Assembly (NCBI GenBank): GCA_014860225.1
Contig: JACZKE010000020.1
Location: 1-35,141 of the forward strand
Length of the DNA: 35,141 bases
Direction of reading: 5' to 3'
Source of the DNA: Desulfuromonadales bacterium
GTDB lineage: Bacteria; Desulfobacterota; Desulfuromonadia; Desulfuromonadales; BM103
The notes beneath the pieces are model-generated. The model had not been told where the DNA came from, did no database searches, and was given only the letters and a program-made list of their open reading frames with translations. Of the stretch, positions 9,673 to 11,816 are shown piece after piece (within the stretch, counting starts at the first letter, position 1; each line of letters starts with the position of its first letter). Position numbers and translations under genes: made by a program.

Positions 9673-10077
9673 ATGGCAGAGCTGGTAATGCAGCAGGTAT
9701 TTTGCCCGACAAAATCCAGGCGCAGTGGCTTTACGCTGCTGGAAATCATGATTGCGCTGGCCATCGTCAGCATCGCCATGGTGTCCCTGCTGGCGCTGGC
9801 CAATCGTTCGATCGGGGTTCATGATCGTCTGCAGCGGATTACTTCCGCGACCCTGCTGGCTCAACAGAAGATGGCCGAAACCGAGGTGAATGCCAGGCAA
9901 GGGACTCTGCAGAGCGCTGAAACGCAGGGTGAGTTCAGCGGTGCCTACGCAGCATACCGCTGGCAGATCTCCTACGCCGATACGCCTCTGCCGTCGGTGC
10001 AGATGGTGACTGTAACCGTTCTCTGGGGAGACGAAGAGCGCAATGAGCTGGTCGATCTCACGTCATTCATTTTCTAG
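9673..10077 (+). CDS. gspI: minor pseudopilin GspI
   Basis: Minor pseudopilin, part of the GspI-J-K tip complex. It is 134 residues from the ATG at 9673; an in-frame ATG at 9688 is also possible and neither has a clear ribosome-binding site. The leader ends RRSG before FTLLEIMIALAIVSIAMVSLLAL, with Glu5. The C-terminal domain (YRWQISYADTPL, VTVTVLWGDEERNELVDL) fits GspI. Its TAG stop (10075-10077) is built from one host T plus the first two bases of an inverted-repeat element, so the element sits exactly at the 3' end of the gene. Confidence 0.93.
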   Translation: MAELVMQQVFCPTKSRRSGFTLLEIMIALAIVSIAMVSLLALANRSIGVHDRLQRITSATLLAQQKMAETEVNARQGTLQSAETQGEFSGAYAAYRWQISYADTPLPSVQMVTVTVLWGDEERNELVDLTSFIF

Positions 10078-10239
10078 GAGCCTGTCGGACTTGGGAAATC
10101 CAAGCGAAAATTTGGCTGAGCGAGGGCAGATTTTGTCGATTTTGAAGGTTAATAGTATTTCTATTGACCAAGAAAGCGACGAAATATGAACCGTTCAGAC
10201 GAATTTGCAGCGGATTTATTCCAAGTCCGACAGGCTCCT
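10076..10239. repeat. 164-bp palindromic MITE-like element between gspI and gspJ
   Basis: Perfect 19-bp terminal inverted repeats, beginning AGGAGCCTGTCGGACTTGG, lie at 10076-10094 and 10221-10239. The interior is also self-complementary: GGTTAATAG (10147-10155), loop TATTT, CTATTGACC (10161-10169), flanked by further imperfect arms such as ATTTTGTCG with CGACGAAAT. The centre of symmetry matches the middle of the element. It encodes no transposase. No clear target-site duplication was found. It supplies two bases of the gspI stop and the start plus leader of gspJ. Confidence 0.85.
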
Positions 10240-10854
10240 GGTTCCGAGCAAGGTTTCACCCTGGTCGAGGTGCTGGTTGCGATCAGTATCCTGGCCATTT
10301 TGCTGACCTCTGTTTATGGCATCTTCACCTCGGTCAGTTTAACCCGGGAGCGACTGGATGCCGACAGCGCCGAGTATCACCGGGCGCGGGTTCTTTTCGA
10401 TCGCCTGGGCCGTGAACTGCGCGGCACCTATTTTCAGCCGCGCGACCCTGATCTGGTCTTTAGCGGTAGTTCGGTTGACGATGACGCGCTTGAACTGGAA
10501 CTGTCTACAACAGCAGTGTCGCCGTTGAGCCAGACCGGATCGGGTATCGCCAGGGTCCGTTACCAGCTCATCGAAGATCAGGAAGCTACGGACGGCGGGC
10601 TGGTGCTGATGCGCAGCGAACACCCTGTCCATGAGCAGACTGATGAAGAGGCTGCGGGCATGATGCGTCTGGTGCCGGGGGTCGAGGCGCTGAGGCTGCG
10701 TTTTTATGCCAACGGGCTGTGGCAGGAGACATGGGACGGGCGGATTTCCGGTCTGCCGGAACTGGTTGAAATTGAGTTGCGGCTGCGCACGGGCGAAAAG
10801 GAACCGGCCCATTTCATCTCGTCCTTCGAAGTTCCTGATGCGGAGGTCCTATGA
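10186..10854 (+). CDS. gspJ: minor pseudopilin GspJ, leader encoded by an inserted element
   Basis: Minor pseudopilin of the tip complex, 222 residues. The prepilin site is SEQG/FTLVEVLVAISILAILLTSVYG with Glu5, and the rest fits GspJ (ETWDGRISGLPELVEIELRL). The ATG at 10186 is the only ATG, GTG or TTG in frame before the cleavage site. It lies inside the 164-bp inverted-repeat element, so residues 1-18 of the 23-residue leader are element sequence. The ribosome-binding site (AAGAAAG) is weak and also within the element. Because the leader is cut off, the mature protein is unaffected. The gene ends in a 4-bp overlap with gspK. Confidence 0.93.
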   Translation: MNRSDEFAADLFQVRQAPGSEQGFTLVEVLVAISILAILLTSVYGIFTSVSLTRERLDADSAEYHRARVLFDRLGRELRGTYFQPRDPDLVFSGSSVDDDALELELSTTAVSPLSQTGSGIARVRYQLIEDQEATDGGLVLMRSEHPVHEQTDEEAAGMMRLVPGVEALRLRFYANGLWQETWDGRISGLPELVEIELRLRTGEKEPAHFISSFEVPDAEVL

Positions 10855-11816
10855 AAGACCGACGAGGAAACCGGGGGATGGCTCTCCTGCTGGTGCTGGT
10901 GGTCGTCGCTCTGTTAACTTCGCTTTTGACGGACCTGGCCTTCTCAACCATGGTCGACATGCGCCTCACCGAGACGTTCCGCGACAGCACCAGGGCATAC
11001 TATCTGGCCAAGGGTGGCATCAATGCCGGCCGCATGATTCTCCAGGAGGATCGCAACAAGTACGATTCGCTGGATGAAGTCTGGAGCAAGGGTGTGATCA
11101 ACTACCCGGTCGGCGAAGGAAACGTCACCATTCTCATCGAGGATCAGGATGGCAAACTGGCAATCAACGGCCTGGTTCAGGGGAATAGCCCGCAGGCCAT
11201 CATGATCGATCGTTTTTACCGTTTTCTGATTGCCATGGAAATCGAGCAGCAGGCGGATCCGGCAGAGCTGACTGCTGCGCTGATTGATTGGATAGACACG
11301 GGTGATGATCCCTATACCGAGATCCATACCGATGATCAAAGTCTGCCTGTCTCGGGCGCTGAAGACATCTACTACCGGAGTCTGCCGCAAGACTATCGAT
11401 GCAAGAACGGTCCGCTCGAGACGCTGCAGGAGCTTTCCCTGGTCAAGGGTTTTACGCCTGAAATCGTCAAGCTGATCAGTCCGCATCTGGCGGTCAATGA
11501 AACGCTGCAAGTCAATATCAATACAGCCAGTGTCGAGGTGCTGATGTCGCTCGACCTCCAGGTCAGTCGCGAAGCGGCCCAAGAGATCATCGACTATCGC
11601 CAGTCGCAGCCGATCGTGAATGTCGCCCAGCTTGAGGAAGTTCTCGCTCCGGAGGTCTACATAGTATTGAAAACTCTTGCCAATCTCCAACAGCTGGGTA
11701 CGACCAGCCGGACTTACCGGATCGAAGCATCAGCACTGGTCAACGACGGCAGCCGTCGATTGCTGGCGGATGTTGATAAGCAAAGTAATAAGCTGCTTTT
11801 TTTCAAGGTGAATTAA
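10851..11816 (+). CDS. gspK: minor pseudopilin GspK
   Basis: Largest minor pseudopilin, predicted to cap the pseudopilus. It overlaps gspJ by ATGA. It has 321 residues: a short leader ending GNRG, then MALLLVLVVVALLTSLLTDL. The Glu5 of other pseudopilins is absent, as is usual for GspK. The large periplasmic part contains an alpha-helical insertion with LTAALIDWIDTGDDPY and helix-hairpin-helix-like INTASVEVLMSL motifs typical of the family. It is followed 4 bp later by gspL. Confidence 0.96.
   Translation: MKDRRGNRGMALLLVLVVVALLTSLLTDLAFSTMVDMRLTETFRDSTRAYYLAKGGINAGRMILQEDRNKYDSLDEVWSKGVINYPVGEGNVTILIEDQDGKLAINGLVQGNSPQAIMIDRFYRFLIAMEIEQQADPAELTAALIDWIDTGDDPYTEIHTDDQSLPVSGAEDIYYRSLPQDYRCKNGPLETLQELSLVKGFTPEIVKLISPHLAVNETLQVNINTASVEVLMSLDLQVSREAAQEIIDYRQSQPIVNVAQLEEVLAPEVYIVLKTLANLQQLGTTSRTYRIEASALVNDGSRRLLADVDKQSNKLLFFKVN

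Follow-up and report, generated by a model that had tools for sequence, protein, structure and literature searches.

How does gspJ, a gene of the type II secretion machine, obtain its start codon and leader peptide when a long palindrome lies across its junction with gspI? We addressed this question in a stretch of 35,141 nucleotides, hereafter the window, that carries a type II secretion operon. An earlier interpretation, that the element supplied the start and the leader of gspJ, is supported by the sequence. Overall, a hairpin insertion targeted to CTAG has probably displaced the native gspJ start and supplied a new start and leader. The insertion, its target copies, the displaced start, the sole remaining start and the overlap of stop and start can each be read directly from the letters of the window, where the relevant features are as follows.

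9673–10077, + strand: gspI, open reading frame; T2SSI (PF02501) 29 over 25 bits, TIGR01707 52.3 over 44.35
10043–10045, + strand: native start codon of gspJ, within gspI and now displaced; five relatives open gspJ at the equivalent ATG
10043–10189, + strand: 48-codon frame from the displaced start through the left arm and the loop, ending at TGA 10187–10189; from the sequence
10074–10077, + strand: left target copy CTAG; from the joined flanks and the family ends
10075–10077, + strand: native TAG stop of gspI, within the target CTAG
10076–10094, + strand: left 19-bp arm as first described; two of its bases belong to the target copy
10078–10237, + strand: 160-bp hairpin core of the element; from arms, fold, joined flanks and repeat family
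10186–10189, + strand: ATGA, in which the new start of gspJ overlaps the TGA that closes the 48-codon frame; from the sequence
10186–10854, + strand: gspJ from the element's ATG, open reading frame, with the prepilin G at 10252–10254
10221–10239, + strand: right 19-bp arm as first described; two of its bases belong to the target copy
10238–10241, + strand: right target copy CTGG, differing from CTAG at one base; from the joined flanks
10851–11816, + strand: gspK, the next operon gene, open reading frame; T2SSK_1st (PF21687) 64.2 over 26.2

The first-pass annotation had described a 164-bp element with perfect 19-bp terminal inverted repeats. The repeats are indeed perfect, with 10076–10094 and 10221–10239 complementary at 19/19 positions, and the hairpin is real: the strand folds at −96.1 kcal/mol (10060–10260; z −9.9), and 0 of 200 shuffles were equally stable. 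Two occurrences of an 18-base end motif were counted in the window, where 0.05 would be expected, and 1 of 100 shuffles reached that number. The borders required correction, to an inserted core of 160 bp (10078–10237) plus 4-bp target copies. Specifically, the four flanking bases are regarded as a target duplication because another copy of the element, L003, lies between direct repeats CAAG and CAAG, and 10074–10077 and 10238–10241 are assigned as the target copies of the window since joining its flanks with one 4-bp copy restores the gspJ frame, colinear with that of the relative G017. With these borders the gspI stop TAG is pre-existing target sequence, so the claim that it uses the first two bases of the element does not hold; G017 has the same TTC TAG at the end of gspI. 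The net insertion at the junction is 164 nt. The window copy differs from the 3-of-4 majority of its close copies by 5 private changes in 168, and thus some time has elapsed since insertion. Rfam covariance models run over 9900–10400 gave three matches up to E 5, none reaching its gathering score.

The junction lacks the element in five close relatives (G001, G003, G005, G007 and G017), which provide the empty site that the annotation had proposed to look for. The gspJ start in all five is an ATG within gspI that lies 35 nt ahead of the end of that gene's stop. The equivalent ATG 10043 persists in the window, but it is out of frame with gspJ because the insertion adds 164 nt net. The joined flanks give the leader MSWSISRHSFSSSEQ ahead of GFTLVEV, and the counterpart in G017 is MNWSTSHHSFSSAER. 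The empty relatives and the joined flanks together place the insertion at a stop-bearing CTAG, with GspI unchanged and the overlapping gspJ frame shifted. Element-free relatives do not share the GspJ leader of the window, since theirs differs and opens inside gspI, nor is the element a position-conserved, unrepeated sequence, having copies elsewhere in the genome and being absent from the relatives' junctions. ATG 10186, inside the element, is the sole ATG, GTG or TTG that the gspJ frame offers from the upstream stop to the prepilin site, as had been proposed; the next start codon in that frame, GTG 10270, lies past the prepilin site. ATG 10186 is likely the start that gspJ uses. Codons 10186–10239 encode exactly the predicted 18 of the 23 leader residues. 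The new leader has a net charge of −2 by hand count (four acidic and two basic residues), and the relatives' leaders are neutral or positive.

Searching the whole genome for further copies, a check that the annotation had also suggested, gave 43 matches at 40 distinct places, window copy included; the copy number is at least 40 places, with 40 of the 106 first-look candidates scored. Two other copies are near-complete at 96 and 94% and most of the remainder stand at ~70%, while the motif CTGTCGGACTW occurs 64+55 times in this genome against 9+11 for a reversed control. The copies are numerous and contain no transposase gene, as in a miniature inverted-repeat transposable element (MITE). Six contigs of this genome (C21, C22, C29, C55, C60 and C66) start within a copy; the element therefore seems to break the assembly, and the copy counts are lower bounds. 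Family matches were found in 27 of 58 genomes in a search of relatives, the own genome counted, including a copy at 94% in another family of the same order (G023). Among 66 full-length copies, the length including target copies was nearly fixed at 169 (46), 168 (19) or 167 (1). A scan of genome contigs with the 18-base end pattern returned at least 118 stretches with titles mainly of Beta- and Gammaproteobacteria, and in 80 of the listed loci the commonest spacings of paired ends were 169 (19) and 168 (13), and minor classes, 184–190 among them, were also present. Besides Beta- and Gammaproteobacteria, a Nitrospirales metagenome-assembled genome (MAG; L188, L226) has full-length end pairs, with the caveat that binning errors may affect MAGs. 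Searches of plasmids and phages gave no family match at E 0.001.

Several variants were seen alongside the main class. Five loci (L203, L206, L211, L217 and L234) form a second length class of 188–190 bp, ~20 bp above the main one; four (L155, L158, L151 and L152) are short relatives with the same ends and only about 70–76 bp; and four (L142, L143, L150 and L167) are truncated, with one exact end retained and the rest lost from a point within the element. The copies L006, L019 and L023 are inserted into another repeated sequence, which contains a GGCGTAG...TACGCCGCAC stretch. In the open-licence literature, as far as its text was accessible, the examined matches to the element's end sequence were primers; one of them, the primer OmcE_fwd in the primer table of a Geobacter sulfurreducens paper (PMC11077965), points to a probable copy close to omcE in that species.

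To describe the hairpin across the family, we aligned 43 copies, hand-picked for spread. Two-sided compensatory change was found in 42 of 62 hairpin pairs, 94.4% of pairing cells were paired (78.0% when shuffled; 34.4–48.5% with slid partners), and the covariation score was 0.459 against 0.172 shuffled. The hairpin is maintained across the family. The arms of a mobile palindrome could be kept alike through conversion, and the hairpin may matter as RNA, as single-stranded DNA or as a DNA palindrome.

The likely partner of the element is an insertion sequence of the IS1182 family with the same ends, which surfaced through the end-pattern scan of genome contigs. In L200, from a MAG titled Actinomycetes, the same ends flank a transposase of the IS1182 family (NF033551, 363.1 bits over 270) and are separated by 1570 bp, counted with the target copies. 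When this transposase was used to search relatives, all five distinct loci at least 53% identical to it were found to carry such an end in the fetched DNA (G007, contig C44 of the own genome, G047, G046 and G023), and the element end was absent from the remaining fetched IS1182 loci, at or below 41% identity. In G007, a congener, the transposase scores 325.6 bits over 270 and the right end is cut by the contig. The own-genome locus on C44 (L290) is an IS1182-family copy with an internal deletion; one of its ends has CTAGCAGTTTGTCGGACTT and the other is degenerate. No intact IS1182 partner was found in the own genome; a paired-end search for an autonomous copy in 39 stretches of the own genome and G034 returned full-length, short or truncated copies only, and DUF772 (PF05598) is represented in the own genome by one fragment, which has no end motif. 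From these loci we infer that an IS1182 partner probably exists in the lineage of the window. The consensus of the family ends gives CTAG as the target. Away from elements, 38 of 95 background CTAG sites coincide with the stop of an open frame that is 100 codons or longer, so landing on a stop is unsurprising. The set of copies drawn from the window's order showed no extra preference for stop codons (19/63 copies against 38/95 background CTAG sites, p 0.24); a second set did show one (13/29 against 19/100, p 0.007).

We further asked whether the family donates starts elsewhere. In the 43 aligned copies, an ATG stands at the place of the gspJ start in 38, and an ATG with an open exit frame in the same phase in 26. 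The G034 copies of the length alignment preserve the pairing and keep the ATG in 0 of 13, which leaves a start-donor function at the family level unsupported. Coding selection on the exit peptide was likewise rejected, as phase 0 is open in 33/43 copies and another phase in 41/43; codon positions in the 43 copies gave no coding signal, the third not being the most variable. In an ORF-exit test of 66 copies, 29 copy-orientations gave a frame running at least 40 codons beyond the element, and a longer scan of 138 elements gave 71 outgoing frames of at least 90 codons, many of them visibly shadow frames. Flanks were then joined for 129 copies that had 250 nt of sequence to either side. Four of the 34 candidates, gspJ among them, were kept as falling in the first 3–11 codons of a gene judged real, and the other 30, judged as a group, were apparent shadow frames or had unlikely starts.

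A second start donation is likely at a modB–modC junction of a Rhodanobacteraceae MAG, where an element of the same family occupies L179:767–934. The ATG that overlaps the modB stop, which by sequence reading alone appears to be the native modC start, is thrown out of frame and opens 44 codons, and the TAG of this frame begins 10 nt after the element's ATG begins. That ATG lies in the modC frame and gives MARVDRFAARPTQVRQAP ahead of a ModC match starting at residue 22 (modC TIGR02142 300.2 over 285.05; modB TIGR02141 230.4 over 182.6). Both start donors, at gspJ and modC, involve 164 nt net and overlapping junctions. The two other cases come from one Gammaproteobacteria MAG and have a frame open right across the element: at L174:6009–6192 a prepilin-like gene (PF07963 28 over 21.2) is crossed in frame by 180 nt inside its leader, and at L237:4173–4341 an FGE-sulfatase-domain protein is crossed in frame by 165 nt at its signal region, which by our own reading looks lipoprotein-like.

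We propose the following course of events. A non-autonomous 160-bp palindrome, moved in trans by a CTAG-preferring transposase of the IS1182 family, would have inserted at the CTAG that holds the native TAG stop of gspI, the target duplication leaving gspI intact. The insertion point lies 11 codons past the native gspJ start, and with a net shift of 164 nt that start would no longer reach GspJ. The right arm of the element offers an ATG and an open exit frame, ending in VRQAP, in frame with gspJ, and could now supply the start together with 18/23 leader residues, a leader that prepilin peptidase would remove. Such processing, tolerance of the new leader and an altered J:I ratio are what the arrangement leads us to expect. 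Additionally, ribosomes from the old ATG 10043 may translate the 48 codons through the hairpin and melt it, stop at TGA 10187–10189 and reinitiate at the overlapping ATG, which would couple GspJ synthesis to gspI translation. We hold this termination-reinitiation at the ATGA to have about an even chance of being correct. In a simple fold model, the unpaired fraction of the start region 10166–10200 is 0.23 when no ribosome is present or when one sits at the gspI stop. It becomes 0.89 when a ribosome footprint is placed on that region, a value that follows largely by construction since the footprint is an assumption. The overlap itself may be luck, as the entry frame reaches the ATG region in 12/43 copies.

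The main rival to reinitiation at the ATGA is that GspJ starts at ATG 10186 by independent initiation, the 48-codon frame and the overlap being coincidental. The overlap requires no more than an A following the ATG together with an entry frame free of stops, and ATGA is present at this place in 6/43 copies; moreover, the close copy L067 has a stop in the entry frame. Of the two other closest copies, L002 has both frames open as in the window, and in L003 the exit frame is interrupted by a stop. Against independent initiation, the window ATG has no preceding SD-like motif, although one occurs in 15/43 aligned copies, and the start region is mostly paired; the native gspI–gspJ arrangement is itself overlapping; and the modC case also has a crossing frame, ending 10 nt past the element's ATG. 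Balancing these points, we consider independent initiation a serious possibility, though somewhat doubtful. A different account holds that the insertion in effect killed gspJ, with the ATG buried in the hairpin, an acidic leader, and an open frame that is recent debris. The stability of the hairpin and the pairing of the start region agree with this account, as do a score against TIGR01711 just below the cut-off (59.1 against 64.85) and one relative-rate comparison of six in which the window lineage is faster (26 vs 7, chi2 10.9, outgroup G017); the other 5/6 show no acceleration of GspJ. Yet gspJ keeps 222 open codons, a prepilin motif and the GspJ domain (T2SSJ PF11612 54.3 over 28; N_methyl PF07963 34.9 over 21.2) between gspI and gspK, as expected of a GspJ minor pseudopilin. 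The dN/dS of its mature part against five relatives is 0.12–0.20, near the values of gspI (0.11–0.14) and gspK (0.12–0.17, four pairs), albeit averaged over a longer period than the time since insertion, and the private changes in the element mean that some time has passed since then. Loss of gspJ function is therefore not favoured by the sequence, and we regard it as improbable.

The origin of the element may be weighed in the same way. Instead of an IS1182-type MITE, it could be a repeat like the REPINs, mobilised by a Y1 (RAYT) transposase, and one Y1 gene of the own genome does lie ~15 bp from a copy. Among 36 Y1 loci, however, the exact end motif was found at that place only (two of the loci are the same place), and one further locus, L100, has a one-mismatch match, of which control gspJ loci hold 8 in 104 kb; the IS1182 loci, for their part, have the same ends. 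A Y1 origin was thus rejected as highly improbable, and the IS1182-type MITE remains our reading.

Comparison with known systems, limited to the accessible text of each source, places the element as follows. MITEAba12 of Acinetobacter is reported to give neighboring genes their first four residues, MQQS (PMC6382973). Like the window element it is non-autonomous, with inverted repeats, a nearly fixed length and target duplications, but it differs in its 111–114 bp, 9-bp duplications, ISAba12 partner, weak secondary structure and outward promoters, and the accessible account mentions neither a displaced overlapping start nor a stop-start overlap (PMC6382973). Chunjie of Geobacter uraniireducens is likewise a MITE, in a Geobacter genome, known for insertion into an operon; compared by description only, it measures 178–235 bp against the nearly fixed 168/169 of the window family (PMC10969869). 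The Rickettsia palindromic elements are also palindromes of ~150 bp that become coding sequence, but they are described as inserting in frame within proteins, whereas the gspJ element provides a start and a leader (PMC10969869). In-frame insertion of this type does not apply at gspJ, where the 164 nt net shift the frame, and is found only at L174 and L237, which are accordingly nearer to the Rickettsia elements as described (PMC10969869). MITEPsy1 of Pseudomonas syringae likewise duplicates CTAG (or YTAA) but has 100 bp, an IS5-like partner, ISPsy2, and another end sequence (PMC3189936). The IS1182 family, to which the element's likely partner transposase belongs, includes IS1272, and palindromes are described as the targets of some of its members; stem-loops are reportedly replaced by IS1272 with no duplication (PMC5678879), whereas the window family shows a 4-bp duplication. 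We found in the open-licence literature no recognised description of this hairpin family, nor any case in which an insertion shifts an overlapping start out of frame and recreates an overlap of stop and start. MITE-donated starts are already known; within that literature, the displaced overlapping start and the rebuilt overlap are new.

At the gspI–gspJ junction, a mobile element has entered two overlapping genes of a conserved machine, and neither gene is obviously lost. The upstream stop is preserved through the target duplication, the element appears to supply the downstream start, and the stop-start overlap could keep the two genes coupled. The locus thereby offers a directly testable model for the origin of new leader peptides and leader frames. 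More broadly, a widespread hairpin family with IS1182 ends raises the question of why its structure is conserved. A tentative and rather unlikely extension is that the family is pre-adapted to overlapping junctions, gspI–gspJ and modB–modC being independent products and the in-frame passage at L174 and L237 a further outcome: the CTAG target is often a TAG stop, the right arm commonly has an ATG and an open exit, and the entering frame runs to the ATG in some copies. If so, an insertion would convert an overlapping start into a leader frame that ends in a stop-start overlap, with a new N-terminus for the downstream protein, while both genes stay alive and coupled.
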